The notes under the pieces are model-generated. The model was not told where the DNA came from. It worked only from the letters and a program-made list of their open reading frames with translations, and did no database searches. From Siphonodentalium dalli (Eukaryota; Mollusca; Scaphopoda; Gadilida; Siphonodentaliidae), in contig CP136064.1 in the NCBI GenBank assembly GCA_032622095.1, positions 249,459,827 to 249,523,826 on the forward strand: DNA of 64,000 nucleotides. The letters are read 5' to 3'. A program made the translations under genes and the position numbers. Each line of letters begins with the position of its first letter. The stretch's first letter is position 1. Of the stretch, positions 2,135 to 59,430 are shown piece by piece.

Positions 2135-4782
2135 AGAAATCGAAAAGAAGTCGAAATTGTCACATACTAATTTCAACTTTTTGTCATAATATCAATATGT
2201 ATGGATTGGTCGAAACGGTACATAAGCCATCTGTTAGTTCCAACATAGGTCGTCGCCTTCTGGGAGGATGAAAACCCACAATAATCGCGATGTGGCATTT
2301 CGAAATCCATTCTCCACTAAGCGCCCATAATGGCCGTAACCGTATATGGGTGTGCCGAATAGTCATATTATGACTTCCAATAACCAAAACAACAGTACCT
2401 GAGCTTATTCTGATTTGCCACATTCAGCATTATCTGGATCAGCATCCGTCTCGTCACATTAATCTATCTCGCTCACACCAACACAGTGTTCTACACTCCC
2501 TGGTAGAAGGGTCCCACTAATCGGAATGTTTCAAACAACACATATGCCGGTGTCAAGCTCATGTGTTTGTCTCGAAAGCTGGGAATTCTTATCCTTATTC
2601 TTGGCGAGCTTCATTCGTGGTAGCTTATGGTATAATTCAGATGCTGCATATGGGATCTGAGCGTCATCTTGCGTGATAAACTACAAAGGTATGCGGTCGA
2701 TACGTATACTAGCTTTCAGAAGGACCTCTCTATCTGCGTATTTTTCAGATTTGGTTATCTAATGTGGATAACAAACTGTACATCTGGTGATCTTCCCATC
2801 CAGCCACTTCTCAAGATATGGTTCACCAATTCACATATTCACGTACTGACGTAGCCGGACAACTTCTGTATATGGCTTCGAATGTTGAAAGCCTAACATT
2901 TGACAGATGCCTTTCTGCTAAGGCGTAGAAGACCATAATGCATAATATACCCACACGTCTTGACCATGATCATAAGAACAGTCCTGGTGGCGGCCATCAA
3001 TCGTCTCACCATACAGATCCAATCAGATAATAACAATACATGCGGTGCTAGTTTGTGGGCATGTGTCATGATAGTGGAAATGAAATTGGACCATGGCTGC
3101 CCCACCCCTTCTTTGGGTATGTTTTAGATTCAGACATGATCTCATGTGGCTTTGCTTTCCTTGTATGCTAAGATTGCATCTTTCAATCCGCTTGGGTGCC
3201 GTTCTTAATCAACGAACCAGACGTGTACCATTGGCTACTACTATATAAGCCCCACCAGACTGGGATGTAGTCTTCAGGACGATGCATTTGATAGTTACCG
3301 AGAATATGTCATACTCACGCTTGGTGGTGGTCGGTATTGTTCAAGAAAATACAATGCCATCATAACACAAGGGTGAAATGTTCAACGCGAAGAACATCGA
3401 GAGGAATGTTACTTTGATGAGATCTTGCATTCAGTTTAACATACGTTGGGTACAACAAGTGATTTATTGGTAACACCACCATTCAAAACCATTGTCCTGC
3501 ATGAGACATCTTAACTACTATATTCTAAAGTTATATAATATAAAGCTATATGATCATAAAGGTCACGTTCACCAACGTCCTCATCCATTGCCATCGAGAC
3601 TATAAATTGTTTTTTAAACACACAGTGAAATAAATGCACCACAGTTCCTGACATTTTCTTGAATAATACCGCCCACATACTGACACTAACCCTGAGAGAT
3701 CATAACAACAATGCATACCTTCATTCCATAAAGACATTATCCTTTAGCCCATCCGACTGGCTAGGATAGTATTATCCAGACAAAAGTATACGTCTGGTCA
3801 TGTTGATACAGAACGGCCTTGAAACGGATGTGGAAATACAATCTTACCACACCAAAAAGACCAACACGCATGACATTCTATATTGAAACATGCACCTGGT
3901 GTAGGGTTGTATACCGTGGCCCATTTAATTATTATTGCGCATGTCCACAAACTAGCACCGCGAGTATTGTTCTTCTCTGCTGGGAGCTATTCGACGAGAC
4001 GACTGCGGGACGTCACAGTTTGCTTAGGATCATGGTCAAGAAGTGTGGGTAGTCGGTACATTATGGTATTCTCCTTAGCAGATAGGCATCTGTCCAAGGG
4101 AATGAGACAGCTAGCTACCTCCGAAACACTGCCGAAGTTGTCCACGTATGCCAATACGTTCGCTATGTTTGTGAGTTGAACCATCTATTGAGAAGTGACT
4201 AGTTAACTGGGAAGTTCGCCAGGTATACATGTCATTATCCCCACGGGGTATGAGAAAGACATACATAGAGATGACCTTCTGTAAGCTTGTATACTTATCG
4301 ACCATATGCCTTTCTAGTTCAAGATAACGAACAAATCCCATATTTAGCAAGCATCTAAAATCTTAAGCCAGACACCGGGAAATTAATTGTTTGAAAGGTT
4401 ATGATTAAAGGGACCCTTCTCACAGGAAGTGTTGAATACTTTGTCGGTGTGAGCGACCTAGATTTATCAGGCAAAGAAATGGAAACTGGTCCAGATCATT
4501 AAGGACGTGGCAAATCAGAATCTTTTACCAGGTAATTGTTCTAATATGGCTATTCGGCGCACCTACGGTTACGGCCATTATCGGCGCAAAGTGTAAAATG
4601 GATTTCGAAATGACACATCGCTATATTAAGTGTGGGTTTTCGTACTTCCAGAAGGACACGATCAATGTTATGCGTTTTGATACGTTTTAAGTTGAACTAA
4701 TATATGGTTTCGTCCATACATATCGATACTATGACAAAAAGTTGAAAATTGTATGTGAATATATCGATTTCTTTTCAATTTC

Positions 4783-5834
4783 TGGCCTCCAGTTTAGCTG
4801 CCATCTTGACCTTGAGTATCAATTGCCAAACTCAAATGAATACTTCATACCAATATTCCATATCAACATGTGATGGTGGGTAGAATTCGCGAAACAATAA
4901 CGCCCATCGTAAGAAAGTAAAGGAATGTAGGCGTGTTTTCAAATATCGGTCGCCATTTTGGCCGCCATCTTATATTTGGAAAACCATTTATTGCATGGGA
5001 TGAAAGGTAATTACTTCATCTCAGTATTTACAACTCAACTGTCAGCATGTGTGGAGTTTTCTCGACAATAATGCCCAATGATGTGAACATGAGGGAATTT
5101 CGGTGATTTTTCAAAAATTGTCCGCCATTGTGGGCGCCATTTTGGATTTGGGAAACTTTATTTGGATGCAACATAAGGACAGTTATTCGACTAAGTGTTC
5201 CCAACTCACAATAGTAAGCAGGTGTGGAGTTGTCGTGACAATAACTCTCACTGATGTTAAAAATTTTCTATTTCTGGTGGCCATTTTGGCCGCCATCTTG
5301 GATTTGGGTGAATATTCCTCAACTCAGGTATAAGAGGAATCATAGCCCGAGTATCTCCTGCACATATATAATCATGGCTGGAGTAATAATAGCAATAACA
5401 CTCATTGATTCGAAACAGACATTGCGTTATTAGCGTCGTTTTGGCTTTGACCGGATTATACCGGCAATTGGGAAAACGTGATATCGGACACAAATATCCG
5501 CCAAGGAATGAATATTATGGTCCCTCTGTGTTCGTCAATGACTCTTCTAAACGATAAATGTATAAAATCGCGTCAAGGTGCCAATATTTTCCCACAGAGA
5601 CAAACGAAAGGTGGTGAAATGTCCGAAAAATAGCAAATTTTCACATTTCGGCGGCCATCTTGGCCGCCATATTGGATTTGTGTGTCGGATTTTTGGCTAA
5701 TTTGTAAGGGGTGTATATTACCATAACGAATCGAACGGAAAACAAGACCGCATGTGACATCATCTTTACTATAACGGCGATCAAAGAGACCTGGTGCATA
5801 TACAAAAAATGGCCGCCATGATGGACGCCATCTT
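4783..5834 (-). promoter_or_regulatory. Mirrored YY1-like motifs in right palindrome arm
   Basis: The right arm carries the mirror set near 4783-4812, 4950-4973, 5121-5148, 5277-5303, 5649-5674 and 5799-5834, reading GGCCGCCAT on the plus strand. Conservation of both members of each pair in both arms is the main reason to list them. Confidence 0.4.
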
Positions 5835-5966
5835 GTCTGGAGTCTCTGCGGCCACTTTTTTTTCTTGTTAACAAGTGAATAAAATTAGAGGAGACCTTAA
5901 GGAAGAAAATTAGTGGGGTGAAGTTGAGTCCTGGGGGTGCAGAGGTTTACCAATATCTCCTGGACT

Positions 5967-6369
5967 ATATGTATACATTTTAGAAATGTAACTTGTTGAG
6001 AATGTACAACAAACGCATGACTCTTCCCTGAACTGATATAAACTGTACATCATGTAACATCACACTGTTTCACTCTCAATATTTAGTTTAACTTGTAAAT
6101 ATATCTATAGATATCACTTGCGATTGAGATGGTATACCGTATAAATTAGCCTTTCTAAATCTTACTTCATTTAAACATGCACACCACAAGTATATTGATG
6201 AGAGCTGCTGAACGAAAACAAACTGATGCCTTTAATTTTTTGCCTGGGCGATGATGGGAAGACGGCCATAAGGTCACATTACCGCCCGGATTCTGTGTGT
6301 ACACTGAATTTGTATTTCTATTGTTTACCTTGTATTTTATATGTACATGCTTTATCCAATAAATTATTC
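5967..6369. other. Spacer without a gene
   Basis: AT-rich DNA with no supported coding region. A stretch at about 6226-6365 leads directly into the hairpin that follows and may belong to the same mobile element. Confidence 0.4.
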
Positions 6370-13380: not shown

Positions 13381-14237
13381 AACCGCTTGATAATGGCAAC
13401 GGGAATATTTCCAAGTAAACGAGGTCGTGATAATTGCTGAGAGGGGAATGAGATGAGAGGCCGGTTGGAGGTCTACTGTTGGGGACTACAGTTATTATTG
13501 TACGTAATCACTAAGGCGCAATTTCGAATAGGACAATATTGATTGCGTTCGTATATTATACACCAAAGCAAAGCTGTGGAGGCTTGTTCTGTAACAATGG
13601 TCGTGTTCCGTGTTTGTTCTGCCGAGCCTCACATATTGTACGTATTACTTTGTGGAGGACCAACACGCGGTTAGAAACATTCGTATAAATCCCATGTCAT
13701 GGGGGAATTGGGATATATTCAACTGAAGTGGGATCTATATAGCTTTATCTAGTATGGATGCACAGCTAGTCAATGTAAGAGGAAACAGAATATAAGGTAT
13801 AGAAATCTTAACTATAAACGAGAAAAACACATTACATGTCAAAGAAATATAAGAAACACAAAACACCGCCACGACGGACCAATATGGGAATTATTTATGC
13901 ATATTAATGGTGAGTAATGAGCGTTGGAATACGTATTCATGGAAAGGGCAATTAGAGGAGCGGTCTTGACCAGATTTTTTTTTATTAATTTTTTTCTTTA
14001 CACACGGAAAAATGATATATCATATGAAAGTAGAAGATGCAGGCTTCATGTTCCGCCCTGCTGTAAAATGTAAAAGTGGTGCCGTTACCATGGAAACAGA
14101 ATGTAAACAATGTAGACATAGTTTGATATTAAACCATTTCCGCAAATGGTCAAAACTAATTTAAGCCCATTCTAGGACAGGAACAAACGTTGAAGATCAT
14201 TTATTGATGATTTGTCCACTATAACTTTGTTCCAACG
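13381..14237. other. Spacer without a gene
   Basis: About 850 bp without a supported gene. A poly-T rich tract lies near 13974-13999. The CCATGGAAAC word near 14088 also occurs in the tandem repeat that follows, so a decayed third copy may begin here. Confidence 0.35.
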
Positions 14238-14785
14238 ATTCCAGTATTAAATAGGATGCACATATAGGTTATACGGGTCTTTATTGCCATTTTGGGGTGA
14301 ACAATGGTGATTTTTGCAAAAAGTGCGATAATTTTGGAATTGGAACATTTATTGAATACTACATTGGTTACAGTAATAATTTATGCATTATTAAGATGGC
14401 ATCATACGTGTACTTAAAATTAATTTGGATAAAACTGCCGAAAAGGCCCAATACCCAGAGAAATACCTGTTACCATGGAAACGATATTTAAAAATACAAA
14501 AAATGCCGTTATTGGAAAGAAATGAAGACCTATAACCCTTGCGACACAATATAACTTTTTGAAATTTGTTTTCTATGACATGCACTTTTAATCCGGACTT
14601 CTGTGTTGGGTAATTGTTGCGGTTTATTCAGCTGTTGTCATGGAAACGGACCAAATTTCGCCAAATAATGATGTTTTTTCCCATAGAGCTGACATTTAAA
14701 GCATGTAATTTTTGGAAGCAAAGCTTATTATGACAACCCGTTATAGATGTCTCAAAACTTTTTTTAACGATTACTATTTTCCAAT
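14238..14785 (+). repeat. 548 bp tandem repeat, unit 1
   Basis: Contains AGGATGCACATATAGG, GCGATAATTTTGGAATTG, TACATTGGTTACAGTAATAA and ACCATGGAAACGATATTTAA. All four recur in unit 2 at an offset of about 548 bp. No coding frame is conserved between the units. Confidence 0.85.
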
Positions 14786-15210
14786 TATCCCAGTAGTAAC
14801 TAGGATGCACATATAGGATATGAAGGTTTTAGTGCCAGTTTGGAGTAAAAACTGTTAGTTTTTGCAAAAAATGCGATAATTTTGGAATTGAAACATTTAT
14901 TAGATACTACATTGGTTACAGTAATAATTTATACATATTATGATGGCTTCTTACGTGTGCTTCAATCTAGTTTTGATAAAACTGCAGAAAAAGCCCAATA
15001 CCCTGAGAAATACCTGTCACCATGGAAACGATATTTAAAAAAATACAAAAAAAATCATTTTTGGAAAGAAATGAAGTTTTATAACCATTGCGTCACAAAT
15101 TAACTTTTTGAATAATGAATAATGATGTTTTCCCCTATAAACCAGACATTTAAATTGTGAATTTTATAAAGCAAAACATATTATAACAACATGTTATAGA
15201 TGTCTCAAAA
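14786..15210 (+). repeat. 548 bp tandem repeat, unit 2 with internal deletion
   Basis: Matches unit 1 throughout but lacks roughly 100 bp that in unit 1 lies at about 14562-14665. Both units end in the shared word GTTATAGATGTCTCAAAA. Confidence 0.83.
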
Positions 15211-15512
15211 TCTTCAACTCATATATGTATAATACAATATAGGGGATAAGAGCACCCCTAAGACGGCATTCCTGCAGGTTTGCCAGACAAATTTACCATT
15301 AAGTGAACGCACCCTGACATATAATACTCATGCGACTCAGAGTCCACGTGTTTTGATCATTTTATTCCCAATTTTCTCAGCTGTTTCTGTGGATCTAGAC
15401 TAAAAATGTGTAAATAGTGATGTGTTTGGCACAATTTTTTATAATTGGAAATTGTGTGAAAAATTACGGGTATGTTTAAAAACCAATACCACGTATCTGG
15501 AAAATGCCATGA
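15211..15512. other. Spacer before the composite element
   Basis: No gene is recognised. Near 15282-15313 there is weak similarity to family C ends (TTTGCCAGAC and GTGAACGCACCC), too diverged to call. Confidence 0.3.
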
Positions 15513-15812
15513 TAGGATTTTAAAAGATTCGCTGTCTGGGAATTATGAAACTGATTTGAAAGCAAATAGTTGATGATTATAAGCTACATCCCTAAATAGT
15601 AATTACCTGTACTTACTCAGAATAACGGCATAACAAGTTCCTGGAATATATCACATCCGAACCCCTTTGGGTCAAATGTGGACCTGCATGATTAAAATGG
15701 GTCAGTCAGTGTGATGATAGTGATGATTGCTATGCAAATGTGGTGATATGGTATACCATAGCTGCCTTATGTCAAGCTCAGGCAATATATCCGGTTAATA
15801 TATCAATATATG
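15513..15812 (+). repeat. Left inverted terminus of element Y
   Basis: Begins near TAAAAGATTCGCTGTCTGGG and runs to AATATATCCGGTTAATATAT. It matches the reverse complement of 18573-18834 and carries an extra segment of about 34 bp (about 15575-15610) absent from the right arm. Confidence 0.88.
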
Positions 15813-17095
15813 TGGTTAGTTAGTCAATAGACGCAGCCTCTTTGCAATTATATTTGGCTACTTTGTCAATATTGGAGGTTAGTTAGTCAATATATGCAGC
15901 TAATTTGTCAATATATGTGGTTAGTTAAGTCAATATATGCCGCTACGTTTCCAATATATGTGGTTAGTTGGTCAATACTTTGTCCATTAATTTGGTTAGT
16001 TAGTCAATATATGTAGCAAATTAGTCAATATATTCGGTTAGTTAGTCATTATATGCAGTTTCTTTGTCAATAAATGTGGTAAGTTAGTCAATATATACAT
16101 CTATTTTGCCAAAATGTGCAATTGCATTGACAATATATCCAGCTACTTTATCAATATATATAGATATGATTAGTTAGTCATTGTGTGCAACTGCTTAGTC
16201 AATATATGTGGTTAGTTAGTCATTATATGCAACTACTTAGTAAATATTTGTGGTCAGATAGTCATTATATGCATCTACATTGTCAATATCTGCGGTTAGT
16301 TAGTCATTATATGCAGCTACTTAGACAAAGTAGATGCATATATTGACTAACTAACCGCATTTATTGACTAAGTATCTACACATAATGACTAACTAACCAC
16401 ACCTATTGACTAAGTAGCTGCATATAATGACCAACTAACCATATATATTGATAAATTAGCTGCATATATTGTCAATGCAATTGCACATTTTGACAAAGTA
16501 GATGTATATATTGACTAACTGACCACATTTATTGACAAAGAAACTGCATATAATGACTAACTAGCCACATATATTGACTAATTATCTACACATAATGACT
16601 AACTAACCACATTTATTGACTAAGTAGCTGCATATAATGACTAAATAACTGCATATATTGACTAAGTAGCTGCATATAATGACTAACTAACCGCATATAT
16701 TGACTAAGTAGCTGCAAATAATGACTAACTGACCACATATATTGACTAAGTAGCTGCATATAATGACTAACTGACACATATATTGACTAAGTAACTGCAT
16801 ATAATGACTAACTAACCACATATATTGACTAACTAACCGCATACATGTATATTGACTAATTTGCTACATATATTGACTAACTAACCAAATTAATGGCCAA
16901 AATATTGACCAACTAACCACATGTATTGGAAACATAGCTGCATATATTTGCAAAGTAGCGGCATATATTGACTTAACTAACCACATATATTGACAAATTA
17001 TCTGCATATATGACTAACTAACCTCCAATATTGACAAAGTAGCCAAATATAATTGCAAAGAGGCTGCATCTATTGACTAACTAACCACATATTAT
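15812..17095. repeat. Mirror-image minisatellite of 21/42 bp units
   Basis: Up to about 16322 the repeats read GTCAATATATGTGGTTAG alternating with GTCATTATATGCAGCTAC. From about 16325 they read the reverse complement, TATTGACTAACTAACC alternating with GACTAAGTAGCTGCATA. Half-units are about 21 bp and a pair is about 42 bp. The left side is about 510 bp and the right about 770 bp. The turning point is TGCAGCTACTTAGACAAAGT. Tandem expansion before or after an inverted duplication explains it. There are no unique spacers, so it is not a CRISPR-like array. Confidence 0.92.
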
Positions 17096-17097
17096 AA

Positions 17098-17241
17098 GTT
17101 ATTGTGGTTGATTGACGGTAACATGGTGTGACATTGACGGCTTGGAGCCTATGTTCAACCGAGTCGCGCTAGCGACGAGGTTGAACATAGGCTCCAAGCC
17201 GTCAATGTCACACCATGTTACCGTCAATCAACCACAATAAC
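17098..17241. repeat. Near-perfect hairpin, 63 bp arms
   Basis: The left arm, 17098-17160 (starting GTTATTGTGGTTGATTGACG), is exactly matched by the right arm, 17179-17241. Between them GTCGCGCTAGCGAC forms a further small stem. The absence of mismatches implies recent origin or active maintenance. It lies between the minisatellite and the 3' end of the recombinase frame. Confidence 0.95.
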
Positions 17242-17478
17242 GTATATGTTCCATTGACAGCCCTTTAATTTTGTGGTGACAGCTAGAATCAGTTTCATAC
17301 TGGAACCGATGCGTCATATTATAGCATTCTCATGTTTACGCTATAAACCCGTTGCGCCCCCCAGTGAATGACGTCACGAAAAAATCAATAATGTAGTTTT
17401 ATAAATAGAACAAGAAAATCACAGGAAGTTTTGAATGATCGTAGCACAATTTGTAAGTGGATTTCTCTTGATTTCTCA

Positions 17479-18160
17479 TCAATTATGTGGAGGACTGCTG
17501 AAGTGAATGTTGTGAATGGTACATCCACTAAACATTGGAGCTCCCATGTAATGTCCAGTGCTGTCGAGGGACATTTGGACGTTTTCAATGGATAGGCCTA
17601 CTTTGTCCAAAACACCACCGCCATTTCCTGCAAATTTTTCAATTTGTTGTGTTGTTGTTGAACATTTTTGCTGTATTTGCCGAGTTATTTGGGTTCCCGA
17701 CATTACTGGTCGAACTTGAGGAATGTTCATGTCATCATGAGGCGGACACGCAGATCTCGGATTTACGGGCGGATTGTATGGCACATGTGAGTCACGTGAA
17801 ACACTACCACCGATGGCCTCACCCATCGCCATTTTCTCCCTGTCAGAAACTCGTTGATACACAGAGAGGGACGAGACTGACTTATGCCCTGTTACAGCCA
17901 TAATTTGTGATGGGCTGAAATTTACCCTGCCCAGAATTGTAACTCCTGTAACACGGATACTGTGATTGGTGTAACGTTTGGATATGAGGATTTTTTCGCT
18001 CAGGTTTGGCATGAAAAGACGGAGTTTATCACGCCCTATACTGGCTTATTTTGGTACCATATTTCACCAGGATAATCCTCGAAACTGTCTTTAGGATACT
18101 GCCAGAGACGTATTTTGTTACTAAATGCAGACGACGTAATTTGTTTACATCACCTATACA
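17479..18160 (-). pseudogene. Crypton-like tyrosine recombinase, C-terminal part, frameshifted
   Basis: On the minus strand a 177-codon frame (18012-17479) begins MPNLSEK and contains TNHSIRVTGVT, then IMAVTGHKSVSSLSVYQRVS. These are the HxxR box (H17, R20), the following histidine (H43) and the nucleophile tyrosine (Y52) of tyrosine recombinases, with spacing typical of animal Crypton / DUF3504 proteins. After Y52 comes a polar tail of about 120 residues ending PMFSGCTIHNIHF, a style common in this family. Homology continues upstream in a shifted frame (about 18040-18160) with YPGEIWYQNKPV, so there is one frameshift near 18045. The first catalytic arginine and the whole N-terminal part are missing. 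It sits wholly inside the inverted termini of element Y. It is not functional as written, and an intron accounting for the upstream break cannot be excluded. Confidence 0.8.
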
Positions 18161-18440
18161 CAGGTGCGAATACTAACACCCCCCCCCCCAAGAGTGAGTA
18201 GAACCACCCAACTTGACAAACGATGAACACTACAATTTGGATTAATCCATTAAAGTTAGGGACCACTTAGTGTAAGAAAAGACGTTCATTTCTATAATCA
18301 ATGATTTTATAGTGAACCTATTACAGTCCACAGATCGATCGCCGTCAATTGTTATCTGAATTGTCAAACAAATTATTTGCAACACGGTCTTACACGTTTA
18401 CGTGCCGGTAACGTTATTCCCCCAGATGGAGCCTCTTGCT
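18161..18440. other. Non-coding interior of element Y
   Basis: A poly-C tract at about 18180-18190, otherwise nothing recognised. No further recombinase coding sequence was found here in any minus-strand frame. Confidence 0.4.
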
Positions 18441-18442
18441 CT

Positions 18443-18462
18443 ATGCAAATTAGATGACGTCA
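18443..18462 (-). promoter_or_regulatory. Octamer plus CRE, promoter-like
   Basis: ATGCAAAT (18443-18450) is followed four bases later by the full CRE palindrome TGACGTCA (18455-18462), in a locally GC-richer stretch upstream of the recombinase frame on the minus strand. The motifs are exact; a promoter role is inferred. Confidence 0.35.
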
Positions 18463-18572
18463 CCCGCCAACATAAGAACCTTTGCACGCGCGAAAGCCGT
18501 AAACATGGGATATGTTGCGCGAGCGTTAACCAATTGAATGCCGAGGATTTAGCTGGAAATGGAACATATTGA

Positions 18573-18834
18573 TATATTAACCGGATATAGTGCCTGAGCT
18601 TGACATAAGGCAGCTATGGCGTACCATATCACCGCATTTGCATAGCAATCCTCACTATTATCACACTGCCTGACCCATTTTAATCATGCAAGTCTACATT
18701 TTACCCAAAGGGGTTCGGATGTGATATATTCCAGGAACTTGTTATGCCGTTATTCTGAGTAAGTACATCAACTATTTGCTTTCAAATCAGTTTCATAATT
18801 CCCAGACAGCGAATCTTTTAAAATCATATTAGGA
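18573..18834 (-). repeat. Right inverted terminus of element Y
   Basis: The reverse complement of 15513-15812, ending in CAGCGAATCTTTTAAAATCA. Confidence 0.88.
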
Positions 18835-19391
18835 CAATTAAAGATATATATAACACAGTCCATCCCAGGAGACGGTAGCGATTGCTCTTGCACTCGTACG
18901 CACTCGTAATTTTCAATTCACGGGTGCTAAAATTAGCACCAGTCCCTCTTTTCAAAATTTATGACTGTAATCGTTATATTGAATTATTTTAAGGTTATCC
19001 AAAACCCTTTCCCGTCTCAGTTCAATTATGGACATATGAAAGTGTAACTGAACATCTGTCTATCGCACAATAACATTTTGTTTGAGAAAAACCCAACGTA
19101 TACGATTATATTATGGGTGCAATATTACACCGTCTTCTGAATTGTGGGAGCGAATAAATTCTCTCGCTGTGTTTTCCTCGTGGGAAGGACTGATAACACC
19201 ACCAGGAGTCGGATGAGTAAAATGTGATGCGTGTACCAATGGGGTTCACCTGCTCCAAGCCCCCCTCCCCGCACACTTGAGCAATCGAGCTTAGCACTGA
19301 TGCTCGCGATGACGATTGCTCAAGTATATATGCGGGGTGATTTTGCTGAGCAATCGGACGCGCCAGCAATCGGACTCGCACATCAAGGATG
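18835..19391. other. Spacer
   Basis: No gene is supported. TTGAGCAATCG (about 19276) faces GATTGCTCAA (about 19313), a small inverted repeat. An open frame across the spacer on either strand has no domain. Confidence 0.35.
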
Positions 19392-34851: not shown

Positions 34852-34908
34852 GACCCTTCAGTAATGATGACTTGCTGTGTCACATATAGACGTCGGTGAA
34901 TTGTGACA

Positions 34909-36255
34909 ATGCTGTTCAAATTTCGTCAAGTGAAAAAGTTGCTAAAACGCGGAAAAATTCTGCTAATGATAGCCATCTTGATCGTTGTCACTGTGGTCAA
35001 GATATGGTCTAGTGACGACCAGCAGAATGAAATAAACGACACGATACGTATGACGGAAAGGGAAACACACGAATCACCAGAGCAGGGCACAACGCGTGTG
35101 TTACATCCTTCTTCACAAGAGTTCATCCATGTACCCGAAAGATCGGTTCAGAATTGTACCAGCGCTGTTCAGCAGTATGGTGCTAGTTTTAACGTAATAC
35201 TAAAATTCGCAGGCATATTTACCAGTCGTGTTCATGGTGTGCGACAAGGTGGCGAAAACCTCACAGCCGTCATGAAAAGGCCAGCACAGGAGGAATACTT
35301 CTCGTTTTCTAAAGGGTTTATTGAAGTTGAGTGTCAAGGTAAAATATCACCACAACATCCAGGAATGCAAAGGGATCATTTCAAAAGTTTGTTCTCTTCG
35401 GTCTCAAATTCTCCAAAAGTTAACTGTGATGGTTTCCATGGAAACGCGTTGTTGGTTCATAGAGTTGATTACGCTAACCTGTATTGGGCCATGATCGATC
35501 TCCACAATGCATATTGCGCAGCAGTGTCCAATAAACTTAATCTGCGGGATGTTAGTTTGATAATATTAGATGCACATCCGGCGTCTATGGTGGACCAGTT
35601 TTGGAAAATTATTTTTGGTTCCATGTACAGGATTCCACAACTTCCGACCAGCAACTGTTTCCGTCAAGTGATCTGGTCGGCTCCTGTGTGTTGTGGTCCT
35701 ATTACACGCAAGAAAGCAAACAAGGATTCCCTCACTAAATTCCGTGATGTTATATACAGCAATAGTGGTTTTCACTCCAGTCCTCTCGTTTGTGATTCAC
35801 TAAATATCACGATAATATTAAGACGAGACTATGTTGCACATCCAAGAAATCCAACTGGAAAAATCATGCGGAAAATATCTAACGAAAATTCGTTGATTTC
35901 TGATCTGAGAAAAGACTACCCTCATTATGCAATAAACGGTGTCCAAATGGATTCATTATCGGCCAGTGAACAGATTAAGTTGTTGGGTGAGACAGATATT
36001 CTCGTTGGCGTTCATGGTGCGGGGTTGGCCAGTGTTGTTTTGCTCAAGGACAACGCGACTTTGATTGAGTTGTTCCCAAATTCATACCGGCGGCATAAAA
36101 ATCAACACTTTGAGGAGTTAGCTAGGTATTGTGGAAGGAAATATAGGAGCTGGTACAGCGATGATAAGAATAAGACTGATGAGTATGTCCATGTTCCTCA
36201 CAAGATTCTTACGGGTCTCATCAAAGCTTCGGTGCTTCAGACATGCAAGTCTTGA
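34909..36255 (+). CDS. GT61 family glycosyltransferase, type II membrane protein
   Basis: A 448-codon uninterrupted frame. The first ATG is at 34909; the preceding GTG at 34903 is not a plausible eukaryotic start. A short basic cytosolic tail (residues 1-16) precedes one membrane anchor (about 17-33, ILLMIAILIVVTVV), then a lumenal domain with six NxS/T sites (the first two at N43 and N82). RVDYANLYWAMIDLHNAY (185-202) and DILVGVHGAGLAS (HGAG at 369-372), followed by LIELFPNSY (E387), are the hallmark blocks of GT61 (DUF563). Family members include EOGT, POMGNT2 and plant and mollusc N-glycan core beta-1,2-xylosyltransferase. The DYANLY block with a following D-x-H segment looks nearest the xylosyltransferase side, an inference. 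It should act in ER or Golgi on glycoproteins using a sugar nucleotide. No stop, frameshift or intron within the frame; the length is typical for the family. It is the only convincing host gene here. Confidence 0.9.
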   Translation: MLFKFRQVKKLLKRGKILLMIAILIVVTVVKIWSSDDQQNEINDTIRMTERETHESPEQGTTRVLHPSSQEFIHVPERSVQNCTSAVQQYGASFNVILKFAGIFTSRVHGVRQGGENLTAVMKRPAQEEYFSFSKGFIEVECQGKISPQHPGMQRDHFKSLFSSVSNSPKVNCDGFHGNALLVHRVDYANLYWAMIDLHNAYCAAVSNKLNLRDVSLIILDAHPASMVDQFWKIIFGSMYRIPQLPTSNCFRQVIWSAPVCCGPITRKKANKDSLTKFRDVIYSNSGFHSSPLVCDSLNITIILRRDYVAHPRNPTGKIMRKISNENSLISDLRKDYPHYAINGVQMDSLSASEQIKLLGETDILVGVHGAGLASVVLLKDNATLIELFPNSYRRHKNQHFEELARYCGRKYRSWYSDDKNKTDEYVHVPHKILTGLIKASVLQTCKS

Positions 36256-39466: not shown

Positions 39467-39704
39467 ATACGATTTCGTTTTTTCACTGTAACTTTCGTTA
39501 TTTCACTGTAGCTTGCTGGTGTTTTACGCGACCGCGAATTAATACGTCCAGTACATACCGGACTCTTTCTTACCGGATTAATACGCCCAGTCCATACCGG
39601 ACTCTTTTTTTCGGACTGTATTGTTCAATTTGTTATATTATTAAAAGTGAAAATGCCGCATAATTTAGCAATTTTGAGCATTAATAAGGTGCATATAATA
39701 AATA
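39467..39704. other. Spacer with short repeats
   Basis: CCAGTACATACCGGACTCTT and CCAGTCCATACCGGACTCTT lie about 40 bp apart (near 39547 and 39588). No gene. Confidence 0.4.
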
Positions 39705-39852
39705 GAGGATCTTAAATGAGTTTCTATTTTATACGGAATTTATCAACCGAGTTCACTAAATTCGATTTGAGCCGAGGTTTACCGAGGCTCAAATAGAATT
39801 TAGTGGACGAGGTTGATAAATTACGTATAAAATAGAACGAGTTTGAGATATT
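39705..39852. repeat. Family H hairpin 1
   Basis: Left arm TCTATTTTATACGGAATTTATCAACC and onward, right arm GGACGAGGTTGATAAATTACG and onward, tip near GCCGAGGTTTACCGAGGC. It shares TTTATCAACC(T/G)CGTCCACT with hairpin 2 at 52129-52243. The flank continues as TTTTTTATCACATGATCAT, answered by ATCATGTGATAAAAAGG at about 39990. Confidence 0.85.
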
Positions 39853-40016
39853 TTTTATCACATGATCATATAATCGCTAAAATTTTATCGAAAAGAACAA
39901 CAATTAACTGGATCCAGCGTGACGTCATTGCACGCGACGATATTACACGTGTCTATTACGCTCGAATATTACATCGGAAAATAGTGCTAATCATGTGATA
40001 AAAAGGAATGCCTACA

Positions 40017-41095: not shown

Positions 41096-41666
41096 TTTTT
41101 ACAGTCATTTGAATACAGGACGTTTCGTCATTATGCCACAAAATTACGTAATGCAGATAAATACAAACAGTTTACTTGTGTTAGCTCGCAAACCATTAAT
41201 GCGTGGCAAGTTCGCATGGATAATTGTCATATGATGATACGACAACATGACCCACCACAGTGTAAGCCATATTTGCCCCCACTAATAAAGAGCGTTCAGT
41301 AAAATACCATACATAAAGAGCGTTTTGTGAGCGTTGGAGGAAAACACCACAATAAGCCATGTGTGCGCTCCAGTGATAAAGCACGTTATCATAGAACGAC
41401 ATAACGCACTTCACTGCAGTTGTGCAAACCACAAGTCGCATTGTTCAGTTGTTTCTAATATATCACTTCGATTTGTATCTCTAATTGTGAAAGTTGTAAA
41501 AGTAGCTTTTATAGGAGTCGGACACATGTTTCCTGTTGAAACCTAACGGTGACAACGTACGCAGGAGATTTGTTTTGGTTAATTTGATTGCTTCATTCGT
41601 TGTTCTCGTGTTCTGTTTTATTATTGCATATTTATTCTCGCTCTATTTCATTTCTCATTGTTGATA
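41096..41666 (+). promoter_or_regulatory. 5' region of the transposon gene
   Basis: Non-coding leader with two ATAAAGAGCGTT words (41286 and 41315). This 11-12 base motif recurs in family D, family J and the 327 bp satellite. No TATA box stands out. Confidence 0.3.
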
Positions 41667-44603
41667 ATGGCCGACAATCGTACCGTCGGCGATGAGCTTA
41701 ACCCAGCTGAAGACCTCTGTGTCATATGTGGTTTTGGTTTTGTTAATGATCCACCGGTAAAGGTGGGGGCAAAAGGTATTGTGACTCTCATAAGCTGTTG
41801 TGGACAACGGGGCCGACCTAATTTGAAACAATACCTCACCGCGCGCAGCCAGGTGACGCCTGTCGACAAAGTGCTGGTGCATGCAGGTTGCCGGAGAGAT
41901 TTTACCGACACAAAAAGAAAGACACAAGATAATTTGGTGGTTTCAGAAGCGAAAAGACTACGATCTGATGCAACGCCAATCAATATAGCAGAAGACTGCT
42001 TAATATGTGGAGTTCATACAAGCACTGATGTTAGACACCCAGATAGGTCCACACCAATGAGCCAAGTAGAGACCATCCCTATCAGGGACAAGCTCTTACA
42101 ATGCTGTGCGCATAGACAGGATGCTTTAGCATATGACGTGGAGAAGCGCATTCAAGGGCGCATTGACTTGGTAGCAGCATAGGCCGTTTACCACCACGGA
42201 TATCTGACTCGATTCTTGCAAGGCAAGGATGTGAGTCAACCCGAGACAGGAAAAGCAGGTCGAAGATCAGATCAGGGTATGAAACATTGGTTCGAAACGA
42301 TTTGTAATTGGTTCGAGACAGAAGCTGGCGCTGAATTAACACTGTTAGTGAGTTACATTCCAGAATGGTTGAATTCGCAGGCGAGTCAGAGGTTTATACT
42401 ATTAAAAGTTTGAAAGGTAACTTAGAGGAATACTATGCAGAATTCATTTTCTTCGCCGAGGTTAAGGGACGGAAGGATGTCGTTTGTTTTCGAAATATGG
42501 CCAAATTCATTATAAATGAAAAGTGGTACACTGATAAAAACAGGATTTAGATGAGGAGGCAGACAGGATTGTCTTGACTGCAGCAAGAATAATAAAAGCA
42601 CAAATAAGGGAGGCCGATTACAGTCGCGAATCTTATCCACCCAGTGACGCTATATCTATTATTAGTCAGGGGCGAAATTCGATCCCGAATCACCTGCAAA
42701 GCCTACTAAAGATTTTAATTCCGTCCGATGTCAAGCAGAATAGCATCGGTCATTCCATTGTACATGGTGCTCGTCCACATTCGGTTATAACACCAACGCT
42801 GTTTGGACTGGGTGTAGAAATGGACGATGTGTTTGGTTCCAAATGGCTAGTGAACGAGTTATCCCGGTTGGGATTCTCTGTTACCCACGATGAAGTTGAG
42901 AGGTACAAGCAATCCGTCATTCAGACCGAAACGCCCAGTCAAATACTAACTGACTATGCCTTCGTTCAGTGGGTGGCAGATAATGTCGACCACAACATAG
43001 CAACTCTAGATGGCAAGGGGACCTTCCATGGAATGGGGATAGTTGCAATATCTGCACCCATGAATCAATCAGCACTGAACATGAAATCGCGTGTAATCAT
43101 GAGACAAAAGCGGTTGAGGGTTGATGAGCTCGTGAAAAACAAAGGAGTGTCCATCTCCCAATATGTTGATGTTATTGGCAAAGGAATTTCCAATATCAAA
43201 CTGAAATCTATTCTTCATTTTGCCACACCATATACCCTCCCATCTGACCTCAGCACAGATCTGCTGTGGCACTCAGCATGCTTTTTCAGTAAGAGTGAAA
43301 AACCTAGCGCGAACTGGTCAGGTTTCATGCAAAGTGCTTACTCGCAGGACGACACTCTGACCGCTGAGAAATCAGATGTTCTGTTCCTTCCCATCATCGA
43401 TCTGAATCCGTCAGATGACGATTGCATTTATTCTACACTCATTTATGTTGAGGAACAGGCACGTAGATTGAACATCCACACGCCATGTATCACTTTCGAC
43501 CAGCCGTTGTGGCTCAAGGCTGTAAACATAATAAGTTCTAAGTCGATGAACATTGTGTGTAGGCTGGGCGGATTTCACACTGTAGTGAGCTTCATGGGGA
43601 GTATCGGTTCGATGATGAAGGGGTCGGGGTTAGAAGAAGCTTTGGAGAAAGTGTACGGTCAGAACACAGTGACCCATATGATATCTGGAAAGGCAGTGTC
43701 GAGGGCATTGCGTGGTTACTACCTAGTTGAGGCTGCGCTTTTCAAAAAGTTGATAGCTGAAGTTGTCCCAGTTGAAAAGGACGGCAGTTCTGCGGACATC
43801 GAATCGGCAATGGAACAAGATGACATAGAAGCCTCACACATGCAACATGGTGATGTACACGTTGTTGGTGAAAACACGATGGGCAAAATGCACCAGAGTG
43901 AAATGGGCAGAATACAAAACTGCGTGAAGAGATTGAAATTGGTGTTGTTCCTATATCCGCGGCTGCGGACTCAACTGAACTGTTGAAGGTCGAGCAATGT
44001 ATCAATTGTTATAAATCACTGCTTGTCAAAGAATCCCTCACAGCAAAATTGTGGGTGCAGTATATGGATTATGTGCAAACCCTAAAGAACTTCATCCGTG
44101 CTGAGCGAACAGGGGATTGGAATCTGCATATTGTAACATTAGGGAAGATGCTGAACCTCTTCGCAGCCACTAGTCATATAAATTACGCAAAGAGCTGCAG
44201 ACTATATCTCCAAATGATGCTAGAATTACCAGTGAAGCATCATTGTGTACATCAGTGTTTGAGGAACATGGCTTCCATGTAGCCCGTAGAAGTAGCAGAT
44301 TCTGGGCGGGGTTATCAACCGATCTTATACACTGAATAATGACGTATTGAATGCTGAGGGGTGGGGTTGGGAACGACGTGGTGAGGATCTTTCCCCAGTC
44401 ACGACTGACCAGAATGCAGCCCAAGACGAATTGCTCAAGTTTGTACGGTGCAAGTGTAAGATGTCACAAAAAAACCATGTGACACCAATGTGTGTACATG
44501 TCGCAAACATGGTCTGAAATGTGTTATCGCTTGTGGAGATTGTCGTGGAGAGGGCTGCGTGAATTCAGAAGAGGTTCTGATAGATGACGAGGGTGAGGTC
44601 TGA
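41667..44603 (+). pseudogene. Zinc-cluster/CXC-type transposon protein, multiply disrupted
   Basis: An ATG at 41667 starts a frame with CVICGFGF (C-x2-C), CCGQRGR and VHAGCRRDFTD, then a second cluster EDCLICG...CCAHRQDALAYDVEKRI and DLVAA. Homology then runs with breaks: a TAG at 42181; frame changes near 42340, 42543, 43910 and 44245; a stop with frame change near 44330; and a frame change near 44475 in an A run. The longest intact part (42574-43986) holds LFGLGVEMDDVFGSKWL, CITFDQPLWLKAVN and RLGGFHTVVSFMGSIGSMM. The end has RCKCKM, then CTCRKHGLKCVIACGDCRGE, a tesmin/CXC-like cluster, with TGA at 44601. I recognise this as a protein type repeated in many marine invertebrate genomes, but do not know a named superfamily for it. 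A DDE-type core around TFDQPLW is a guess. Not functional as written. Confidence 0.75.
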
Positions 44604-50470: not shown

Positions 50471-52114
50471 AAACGCTCTCTAAATTATGTTGACCCCGAT
50501 TTAGGACGACCCGCCAAAATTCAAGAATGGAAACAAGTCAATCCTGAAAACACACCAACTAGGCATACAGAATCCGTTTTCAGATCGCTTTTAACAAACC
50601 AAAAATGCAAAATGACATAAGGAATCCGACTAGTGGGAGGAGCTTACGGTTGCTGGATACAATGCGCCTATAGCAATAGTTTTATTAGTTCCAGAGCGCT
50701 ACCGATTTGCGCGAACTCATTACGCAATCTAATTGTGTTATCTGTTATCGTGTTCTGGCGATGTCAGCGCAGACATGGAGGTTCTACTTATAGAAATGGT
50801 GATTATTGGGACACACTAAAAGTTGTAGTCCGACCCCGAGACCGAGTCCGGTAAAAGGGGCAGTTGGGAATTTCAATTTCGTTTATTGTCATTTACATAA
50901 TTATGTCAATAATGTTGATTTTTGGTTTGTGATAAGCTATGCCATTTACAAATAAAAGAAATGGAAAAGATAATCTGTAAGTGTTATATTTTAACTTTTA
51001 TCAACATTTTTCGTTCCGCAGCCCACTAAATGTTGTAGTCGGAACCAGCCGAGTCAGCCGCCTGTTTGTTAATTAGGTCCTAATTGTTATTGTTCGGATT
51101 ATGTTGGCGGCTCAAATCAATGGGTGTTTTAGTTCCGACGTGAGCATATGAAACAGTTAGTGAATTATACTCAAAGTACTGTTTATACAGTTGTTTTACA
51201 AGTGAAATTATATCATGCACATGATTGTGTTCTGTTAGAGATGTCGCAGCTGATTAAAGCTCCACTATATTTTATACATGCGTAATCATATGATCTAGAT
51301 GGCGTTACCATTTCTGACTATGGTTTTCTTGTAGCTTATGTATGTCCTCAACTGTGAAATATTCGACGACTATCATGCAACAATGAAAACTGTTATAATC
51401 GTTGATGAATTTCCAACATAATTAACAAATCGACATTTCAATACATTATGATCTGACAACAAAAATGGTGTTTGAAAATAGGCAATCTAATAATGAAAGC
51501 ATGCGTGGATATACATATTAGGGTGAACAAAGAATTAGTAAAGCAGCAAGAGACCGGCCCAGTCGCTGATTGGTGGAAAATATATAATAATTATTTGATT
51601 GAACGGTCGAAAGGTCCATTTGTGAGGCAGAACAAATAAATTGATCCAGTATCGACCATAATGCAAAATGAAGCGTGGATTGACAAACAAAACCGTTTCT
51701 TTAGCGCCGATGATATTTGCGACGCATTTTGAACATTATTTTTATTTTAAGCAAATACTTCCCAGAACAAAACAAGACATAATAATGGCATAATTTGCTT
51801 TATCACATACTTAGGCCCTAAACCCGGCACGCGCAGTGGCGTAAGAGCTTAACGCAATGATGTCGATGTCAATGCCGGAACTTTATTATTATTATAATTA
51901 TAATATAATTATAATCTTCGATTTGTGTTGGGTTATTTAATGTTGACTGTGAGATAAACATTGGTGATAAGGGTGGTTGAACAATTTGTCAACATGAAAA
52001 ACACATTTAAAATTAGACCTATATTTTTTCTTGAAGTTGTCTTTATTTCCCTTTGGTTATAAAGAAATCATTATTGTTTTTCCTTGCTAAAATGTGATTA
52101 TGTGATATAATGGA
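50471..52114. other. Spacer, about 1.6 kb
   Basis: A reversed family J fragment at 50522-50631 and a palindromic AT tract (TTATAATTATAATATAATTA near 51893). Nothing else is recognised. Frames at 50345-50854 show no domain. Confidence 0.4.
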
Positions 52115-52128
52115 TCTCAAATTCGTCA

Positions 52129-52243
52129 CAACTCTATACAAAATTTATCAACCTCGTCCACTAAATTCTATTCGAGCATCGCTAAAGCTCGGCTCGAGTC
52201 GAATTTAGTGGACGAGGTTGATAAATTTTGTATAGAATTGCGA
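52129..52243. repeat. Family H hairpin 2
   Basis: AACTCTATACAAAATTTATC to TCCACTAAATTC pairs with GAATTTAGTGGACGAGG to TATAGAATTG, with a tip around TAAAGCTCGG. It shares its stem core with the hairpin at 39705-39852. Confidence 0.9.
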
Positions 52244-52665
52244 CTCATTAGATATCCTCGATAAAACAATTATAATAGAGTTTCTTTGATGTCCATGCAT
52301 GCATGTCATTTCACATGATCCTCTACAAACATTCATCCAACATGTACACGTCGAAACTATTCCAGCCACATCTGTCCAGAAAATCAGTCTAAATTTGAGG
52401 TTCTCACATATATCTTATCTTGTATCGCAGTGTAGCTGTCAGCAAAGCGAATCCCAATCCAGAAGTGTGCGATGAACACCCGCCTGTAATTAAAACAATT
52501 AGAAGCTTTAAAATGTCACCTCAAAACGCATAAGCCAGGGACGTGGCTAAAGGATCTTCGTTGGGGTGGGACCACCTTGGAATAACTGCACCCCTCCCTT
52601 GCACCAAATGCAGGGAATTATATTAGGACCCCGCCCCCTTTAATTGGGTTGGAATTTACCAAATG
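52244..52665. other. Spacer with family F fragment
   Basis: GACGTGGCTAAAGGATCTTC near 52541 and GGGTTGGAATTTACC near 52647 belong to a short family F copy. Its lost middle borders the microsatellite. Confidence 0.45.
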
Positions 52666-58334: not shown

Positions 58335-58618
58335 ATTCACTTATGCCGAAGGGAAGTGGCATTGTTTATGGCTGGATTGAGCTGAAATTTGGTATGTTTG
58401 ATACTTTCCATAAGAGAATCAAGCAAACTAACGCTCAGCTTCGAGAAATTACTCGATCTATAGGTTTGAATTTCAATCTGAATTTCAATCTGGGCGAATT
58501 TCGATCTGGATTGAAGTTCGAAATTCAGATTGAAATTCGACCCCCACTTTTTTTTGTCTCAAATGCATTGTTGTGTTCCAATTCGTGCTCCCCTGCTCGA
58601 ATTTTGTGTCAAAAGTGA
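58322..58618 (+). other. Family M open frame, unit 2
   Basis: 98 codons with the same GSGIVYGWIELKFG peptide, here fused at its start to the inserted sequence. Coding status is unproven. Confidence 0.25.
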
Positions 58619-58659
58619 TTTTTTTCACTTTTTCTGAGATACTGCTGGACTTGGAAAAT

Positions 58660-59079
58660 TTAGCCACGACGCTGGACATAGAAAATTTGGCCTTCAATAT
58701 TAAGGTGCCGAAGGGAAGTGGAATTGTTTATGGCTGGATTGAGCTGAAATTTGGCATGTTTGATACTTTCCATAAGAGAATCAAGCAAACTAACGCTCAG
58801 CTTCGAGAAACTACTCGATCTATAGGTTTGAATTTCAATCTGAATTTCGAACTTCAATCCAGATCGAAATTCGCCCAGATTAAAATTCAGATTGAAATTC
58901 AAACCTATAGATCGAGTAATTTCTCGAAGCTGAGCGTTAGTTTGCTTGATTCTCTTATGGAAAGAATCAAACATACCAAATTTCAGCTCAATCCAGCCAT
59001 AAACAATGCCACTTCCCTCCGGCACCATAATATTGAAGGCCAAATTTTCCAAGTCCAGCGCCGTGGCTAAATTTTCCAA
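58660..59079 (-). other. Family M open frame, inverted unit
   Basis: 139 codons on the minus strand, the mirror of the plus-strand frame 58573-59070. It contains LENLAFNIMVPEGSGIVYGW. Both strands stay open across the palindrome because each arm carries the same coding-like segment. Confidence 0.25.
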
Positions 59080-59112
59080 GTCCAGCAGTATCTCAGAAAA
59101 AGTGAAAAAAAA

Positions 59113-59430
59113 TCACTTTTGACCCAAAATTCGAGCAGGGGAGCACGAATTGGAACACAACAATGCACTTGAGGCAAACAAAAGTGGGGGTCGAATTTCA
59201 ATCTGAATTTCGAACTTCAATCCAGATCGAAATTCGCCCAGATTGAAATTCAAACCTATAGATCGAGTAATTTCTCGAAGCTGAGCGTTAGTTTGCTTGA
59301 TTCTCTTATGGAAAGTATCAAACATACCAAATTTCAGCTCAATCCAGCCATAAATAATGCCACTTCCCTTCGGCACCTTAATATTGAAGGCCAAATTTTC
59401 TAAGTCCAGCGCCGTGGCTAAATTTTCCAA
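59113..59430 (-). other. Family M open frame, second inverted unit
   Basis: 105 codons on the minus strand with the same peptide and ending ALLCSNSCSPARILGQK, which also closes units 1 and 2 in near-identical form. Confidence 0.25.

Follow-up and report, generated by a model that had tools for sequence, protein, structure and literature searches.

Cryptons are DNA transposons that encode a tyrosine recombinase (YR). Kojima and Jurka 2011 (PMC3212892) report that terminal repeats were not found in animal Cryptons, describe YR sites as inverted repeats of 11-13 bp that lie 6-8 bp apart and propose, by analogy, that Cryptons move through a circle. For CTXphi, PMC3089051 reports that attP1 and attP2 pair into the site attP(+), at which XerC exchanges one strand pair. 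Integron attC sites are, according to PMC4792948, recognised as folded single strands in which extrahelical bases set the strand choice, and replication resolves the product. We analyzed a stretch of 64,000 nucleotides from the scaphopod Siphonodentalium dalli (assembly GCA_032622095.1, contig CP136064.1), referred to as the window, which contains a Crypton nested in a foldback transposon. This Crypton carries a terminal hairpin and, at the inner foot of the hairpin, an inverted copy of its far end. We consider it fairly probable that it integrates via a folded single-strand attachment (att) site.

The earlier note on this DNA had read positions 15513 to 18834 as one 3.3-kb unit. The parts which it listed could be confirmed. 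Comparison of the window with itself by BLAST gave inverted arms of 202 nucleotides at 15608-15809 and 18566-18767 with 95% complementarity, in agreement with the claimed 95% similarity of the ends; a wider match of 15512-15809 with 18566-18829 reached 84.9% over 298 positions with one 34-bp gap. A 21/42-bp minisatellite array changes strand at about 16323, as had been noticed, the hairpin with 63-bp arms (17098-17160 and 17179-17241) has 0 mismatches, and the HxxR, H and Y residues of the C-terminal recombinase fragment (minus strand, 17479-18045) line up with a full-length copy. What had to be given up was the single unit, because these parts belong to two different elements, and also the outer boundaries at 15513 and 18834, as all 18 other copies examined match further outward, each as far as 13934-13953 on at least one arm. 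The note had left the choice between a new class and a nested composite; the nested composite holds, the single new recombinase-associated class does not. Its remark that Cryptons usually lack long terminal inverted repeats (TIRs) and satellite cores is not contradicted, because the TIRs and the array belong to the foldback element. It had overlooked that the hairpin is part of the Crypton.

The genome searched comprises 2.23 Gb in 9 contigs, and the window lies on contig 4. With the arm 15513-15813 as query we obtained 311 candidates and scored 40 of them; these 40 matches, the window's own included, all showed 96-100% identity, and 18 copies were fetched with 10 kb each. None of these 18 TIR-bearing copies shows the recombinase, and the Crypton sequence 17093-18565 had no match in them at E 1e-15. 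As the insert is missing from all 18 copies, the left arm serves as an empty site. It reads ...aaccACATAT^ATTGATATATT..., and in the right arm TATAAG...GGAACAT was inserted with 0 bases gained or lost. A second exact empty site was provided by the Crypton copy L052 and two paralogous repeats in the window, again with 0 bases gained or lost. The Crypton is inserted precisely in the right foldback arm, and target bases were neither duplicated nor lost. A target-site duplication (TSD) of 2 to 7 bp was considered for the Crypton insert and ruled out, as none is present at either empty site. The paralogues of the L052 site lie in inverted 1.6-kb copies at 913-2554 and 4371-5974, which are 86.5% alike and 1.8 kb apart.

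The inner element (17093-18567, minus strand) is an internally deleted, non-autonomous Crypton with the termini TATAAG and GGAACAT, its boundaries being drawn from 23 copies. A Crypton query yielded 86 genomic candidates; 40 were scored, the window's among them, and 12 copies (L042-L053) were fetched end to end. These 12 amount to 11 insertions, L044 and L045 having the same flanks, and lie in differing surroundings. A search for full-length recombinase copies, as suggested in the earlier note, was successful: elements of 2.2 kb were found at other loci, and L046 and L047 contain an intact 510-codon YR frame, which was matched without stops in seven copies. The catalytic residues R...HxxR...H...Y are present in the alignment, which was read by eye. 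Compared with the longer copies the window's Crypton has a deletion of about 0.75 kb that removed the middle of the gene, and the remaining fragment (17479-18045) has a 2-bp insertion on its 5' side; it matched Phage_integrase with E 0.0004 and 20.6 bits, under the Pfam cut-off of 27.1. The same internal deletion occurs in four further copies, two of them with shared flanks. The deleted copies occupy four independent sites, the window included, and presumably moved in trans.

The 510-codon protein (family A) matches DUF3504, Phage_integrase and QRICH1, each under the curated cut-off (24.7 bits versus 29.7 for DUF3504). Its relatives, families 644, 551 and 482, score above the DUF3504 cut-off, and the family A protein aligns with families above that cut-off. 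Full-length L046 contains no second long frame; its other frames have 83-100 codons, with Pfam run on the YR frame only. A DIRS-like retrotransposon, in which a YR is combined with RT/RNase H between inverted terminal repeats, was rejected on the grounds that the full-length copy has no long frame besides the YR and that the inverted repeats belong to the foldback element. With its single YR gene, similarity to DUF3504 and QRICH1, catalytic residues, non-autonomous derivatives and lack of a usual TIR, the inner element agrees with animal Cryptons (CryptonA), and the earlier wording "Crypton-like" was borne out. It differs from them in its terminal hairpin, the inverted far-end copy, strand-polar mismatch boxes and a defined target. 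Searches of the PDB gave one XerA match at E 1.3 and otherwise none. A search of viral contigs yielded 15 related loci with 29-42% identity, and a further viral-contig search for relatives yielded none. The YR set of the genome is rich: PF00589 gave 1445 candidates, of which 150 were scored, and many frames are equally long, with about 601-661 codons.

The terminal hairpin (17098-17241, no strand assigned) consists of 63-bp arms and an 18-nucleotide loop. Folded as DNA, 17080-17260 reached -90.9 kcal/mol compared with -19.8 (sd 3.0) for 200 shuffles. The hairpin is located at the same end in 12 of 12 fetched YR copies, although that of L052 is internally deleted; this fixed position ruled out a separate miniature inverted-repeat transposable element. 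A protelomerase, considered for the combination of hairpin and YR, was ruled out as other DNA flanks the element at both ends. Both feet of the hairpin are present in 22 of 23 Crypton copies, and in 18 of those 22 the 63-bp arms have 0 mismatches.

To survey diverged YR relatives (34-69% identity, same genome), the flanks of 10 were fetched, of which C1 and C2 are identical. A hairpin with a stem of 57-69 bp lies downstream of the YR in 8 of the 10 (C1 = C2); the exceptions are B2, which lost one arm, and a decayed 69% copy, which shows none. As controls, such a hairpin was found in 5 of 57 window tiles, two of which are the Crypton locus itself and one (tile 51983) a relative of the element at 39697-40001 described below, and in 2 of 10 upstream YR flanks, both being the identical C1 and C2. 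Among the stems of A, B, C, E, 551 and 644, 11 of 15 pairs were within the range of shuffles (over 5%). Between closer families the base pairs themselves could be compared. For 644 versus 482 (75 pairs), 57 are unchanged, 11 differ in both partners, 1 differs in one partner, 5 are broken and 1 is a gap; for 551 versus 565 (76 pairs), the figures are 50, 18, 1, 2 and 5. Compensatory changes account for 11/17 and 18/21 of the changed pairs, respectively. As far as these sequences indicate, several of the diverged Crypton families share the terminal hairpin, but not all of them do. In family B the copies L086 and L090 have the hairpin apex in opposite orientations, as if inverted. Families 601 (L078/L079) and L115 have hairpins downstream of the YR without the CTCG boxes treated below and with CTTCGGG-type loops; they are perhaps a second type.

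The inner foot of the hairpin is adjoined by ATGTTCCATTGACAGCC (17246-17262, plus strand), which agrees with the reverse complement of the far terminus ...GGAACAT (18551-18567, minus strand) in 14 of 17 bases. No other place in the element matches as well, and with 33 offsets scanned the same 14/17 was reached by 3 of 20000 shuffles. With length kept equal, joining the Crypton ends improved the predicted fold energy from -95.9 kcal/mol to -104.1 kcal/mol, while shuffled far ends folded at -95.6 kcal/mol (sd 2.1) and 1 of 100 was as good as the real one. In families B and C/F, and likewise in 644 and 551, the far-end copy corresponds to the 5' terminus of the respective family, at the boundary where homology between copies stops. 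In family E it matches in 14 of 16 bases, the single copy allowing no boundary. As a sequence architecture, an attP made by pairing two inverted att-like sites would fit.

In many hairpins both arms read CTCG on the gene-sense strand near the apex, often near the base too, and pairing is therefore incomplete there. The opposite strand of these boxes reads CGAG/CGAG; in the window copy the CGAG boxes are located on the plus strand at 17160-17163 and 17176-17179. In the CGAG/CGAG context, G.A pairs in tandem are stable. In a test of 240 non-self-complementary 4-mers on 11 flanks, which were picked after hairpins and boxes had been seen, opposed CTCG boxes occurred in 10 of 11, and the runner-up word CGAG in 2. 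Counted over all YR flanks, the boxes are present in 14 of 27 (8/10, 4/12 and 2/5 in the three fetched sets), and the second copies of families 644 and 551 have them in 4 of 4. No CTCG boxes were found in the 107,628 bases of the viral-contig loci, which served as control. A scan of the whole window gave two places and 20 block shuffles none. Judged by the sequences compared, the opposed CTCG/CTCG mismatch boxes have a nearly fixed strand polarity.

The second place of the scan is a gene-less element of the same hairpin type (39697-40001, minus strand), a separate high-copy family. This 0.3-kb element has boxes at 39748-39811, and a far-end copy was predicted and then found at 40003 with 14 of 14 matches (4.6 kb searched). 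The family has 955 candidates, and the 40 scored, the window copy included, showed 96-100% identity. Its outer end ATAAATAG is constant in 10 of 10 other copies and its far end is GTGATAA in 9 of 10. After GTGATAA and six free bases follow ATAT (4 copies), TTAT (1), ATAA (1) and TTCT (1), and two end with the fetched stretch. L137 shows a head-to-tail copy junction. At 52092-52262 the window contains a sequence related to the 39.7-kb hairpin (about 81%); it is oriented the opposite way, and its boxes have partly degenerated.

Junctions of the Crypton were compared in 23 copies, 22 of them independent because of the shared flanks of L044 and L045; L068 has an altered far end. Directly in front of the Crypton stand A (22), Y (23), A (22) and Y (22 of 23). 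Behind the far end six free bases are followed by W, T and R (22 of 23 each) and then mostly T (17). The target is AYAT-N6-ATRT, an inverted repeat around six bases. The ACAT of the far end forms a 4-bp near-repeat with the left target AYAT, beside the asymmetric inverted end copy. The spacers of the two junctions are one-sided: the hairpin-side spacer is TATAAG in 23 of 23 copies and 22 of 22 independent sites, and the far-side hexamer is variable and never TATAAG. The two empty sites, those of the window and of L052, prove that the far-side hexamer there comes from the target. Such one-sided spacers are what one strand exchange followed by replication predicts and, indirectly, they suggest this order of events.

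We propose that excision would join both Crypton ends in a circle and that the joined ends (attP) in one circle strand would pair with the inner inverted copy. The whole attachment site would thereby become double-stranded inside a single strand, marked by the CTCG/CTCG boxes, with CGAG/CGAG on the transferred strand. The YR would exchange one strand of the folded site with the double-stranded AYAT-N6-ATRT target, and replication or repair would resolve the junction. TATAAG would always remain at the hairpin end and the target hexamer at the far end because only one strand of the folded site was exchanged. Deleted and gene-less copies would move in trans. Whether this extends to a large group of animal Cryptons, which would integrate through a folded single-strand attP hairpin, one exchange and resolution by the host, is in our estimation about an even question.

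The closest counterparts are bacterial. As in CTXphi, two opposed att-like sites surround a hairpin of about 150 nucleotides and pairing across the stem would create the site, a likeness of architecture; as in integron attC, mispaired features may set the strand choice. In both systems one strand pair is exchanged, to which the one-sided junctions would correspond. In contrast to host XerCD or an integron integrase, the enzyme here is an element-encoded eukaryotic YR, the targets are AT-rich and relaxed and the stem contains paired CTCG/CTCG boxes. In the open PMC literature, searched by titles and starts of abstracts, we found no hairpin ends or folded att sites for Cryptons; subscription papers and Repbase lay outside this search. 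The Crypton class is known; its end structure and the implied mechanism look new.

Several points weigh against the proposal. The architecture, the exact insertion at two sites, the one-sided spacers and the recurrent polarity of the mismatches are shown; that the substrate is single-stranded, that a circle forms and that one exchange takes place is inferred, and none of these three was observed directly. Only the two empty sites demonstrate that the far hexamer comes from the target, the far-end spacer of family C looks partly constant, and the strand asymmetry could stem from another cause, for example directed mismatch repair. Stem likeness exceeded chance in 4 of 15 pairs (A-B, A-C, E-551 and 551-644), and part of the hairpin conservation may therefore be plain descent. 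Copy D has the hairpin, but no far-end copy was found, and its 5' end is not homologous to that of family C. Boxes are missing in 13 of 27 YR flanks; L076 of the 659-aa family lacks them although L077 of the same family has them, and none were found within the 261-301 bases fetched of the second copies L110 (565-aa) and L111 and L112 (659-aa). The feature is therefore not universal, or often lost. In L090, the eleventh flank of the 4-mer test, the boxes are on the other strand because the hairpin apex is inverted. Finally, palindrome arms can also stay alike by template-switch correction.

The alternative that survives best is a classical Crypton with a double-stranded circle and two reciprocal exchanges, in which the hairpin and the inner copy would be accessory binding or regulatory sites. 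Such movement is assumed for Cryptons by analogy (PMC3212892), and in the manner of YR sites the target consists of inverted half-sites 6 bp apart. If two reciprocal exchanges took place and the mismatched spacers were resolved at random, however, about half of the junctions should be reversed, and we observed this configuration at 0 of 22 independent sites. This alternative also leaves the persistent pairing of stems and far-end copy across families unexplained, and we regard it as unlikely, though a serious candidate.

Template-switch correction is established for quasipalindromes, and it might be this process, instead of selection for folding, that keeps the arms identical. The hairpin apex of B1 is inverted relative to that of B3, as would be consistent with such correction. 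Against it, the opposed CTCG boxes do not match and are retained across families all the same, and in the YR elements the far-end copy is located more than 1 kb away, beyond the reach of a correction inside the hairpin; we consider it improbable as the explanation of the arms.

A function of the hairpin in RNA, at the 3' end of the YR transcript, in stability, termination or formation of double-stranded RNA, would agree with its position downstream of the gene, where it is found, and with boxes on the gene-sense strand in 10 of the 11 chosen flanks. It is nevertheless very doubtful, as the gene-less 0.3-kb family keeps the structure, its window copy having hairpin, boxes and far-end copy, as the far-end copy would be without a role, and as Rfam gave no match in 13900-19000. 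Slightly more remote still is a rolling-circle-like replication by a helper HUH enzyme. Helitron2, too, ends in a hairpin and has asymmetric terminal inverted repeats; it is suggested that replication stops when these pair (PMC3627910), and the insertion described here likewise lacks a TSD. Helitron2 encodes RepHel, another enzyme, whereas full-length L046 has the YR and otherwise only short frames, and inverted half-sites with a 6-bp spacer are typical of YRs. The single transposing 3.3-kb composite, for which only the adjacency of TIRs, array, hairpin and recombinase in the window speaks, is already refuted by the 18 TIR copies without recombinase, by the other surroundings of 12 of 12 fetched YR copies, all with the hairpin at the same end, and by the two precise empty sites. 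The first two of these observations are those that the earlier note had itself named as refuting.

FB and TU are foldback transposons. The outer element is a high-copy foldback transposon with long inverted arms and internal repeats, which recurs in the genome with TSDs. Its left arm has a unique part (13953-15799, plus strand) that starts with TAGAGGAG at 13953 and is aligned by 18 of 18 fetched copies. It is followed by the left half of the minisatellite core (15800-16322, plus strand), which aligns over its full length to the reverse complement of the right, mirror-image half (16323-17092, minus strand); the outer part shares unit-level features. The single strand switch near 16323 results from the meeting of both arms, as the left arm aligns to the reverse-complemented right arm. 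Of the right arm, 18568-18829 (minus strand) remains; it is 34 bp short compared with the left arm, and its outer side is truncated at about 18829.

Both foldback arms were visible inside the fetched 10 kb in 14 of 18 copies. The termini are TAGAGGAGCG or TAGATGAGCG, and where both ends were located (11/18) the length is 5.1-6.7 kb, with about 1.85 kb for each arm. Of these 11 copies, 9 have a target duplication of 3 bp and 2, namely L032 and L039, one of 5 bp. In all six copies with both full arms the core switches strand once; L025 and L026, counted here and among the 11, have common flanks. Arm identity averages 97%, both inside one copy and between copies. Coding content of the arms was judged from the stop-to-stop frames of the window; the foldback element itself would be non-autonomous and may be moved by a transposase. 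Like FB, TU and Tetris, it is nearly entirely inverted repeat with tandem repeats in the arms, but its core is formed by the array, and each arm has about 1.85 kb of unique sequence.

Elsewhere in the window, a palindrome of about 1 kb (58344-59375, 92.6%) overlaps 351-bp tandem units and is perhaps another foldback element. The neighbouring open frames 41583-42182 and 42538-43986, one of which contains NWSGFMQ and FDQPLWLKA, had no confident Pfam match; they recall what we take to be an abundant uncharacterised invertebrate protein and possibly represent an unclassified mobile-element protein. A 451-codon open frame at 34900-36255 scored above the Pfam cut-off for glycosyltransferase family 61.

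Domesticated genes of animals, among them ZMYM2-4, QRICH1 and KCTD1, are considered to derive from Cryptons (PMC3212892). The layout described here gives animal Cryptons a defined end structure, a target site and a testable strand-exchange mechanism. The signature of boxes and hairpin offers a way to annotate gene-less Crypton families directly. If the proposed mechanism is true, it would to our knowledge be the first eukaryotic counterpart of CTXphi and integron recombination, and recombination of folded single strands would be a mechanism common to bacteria and animals.

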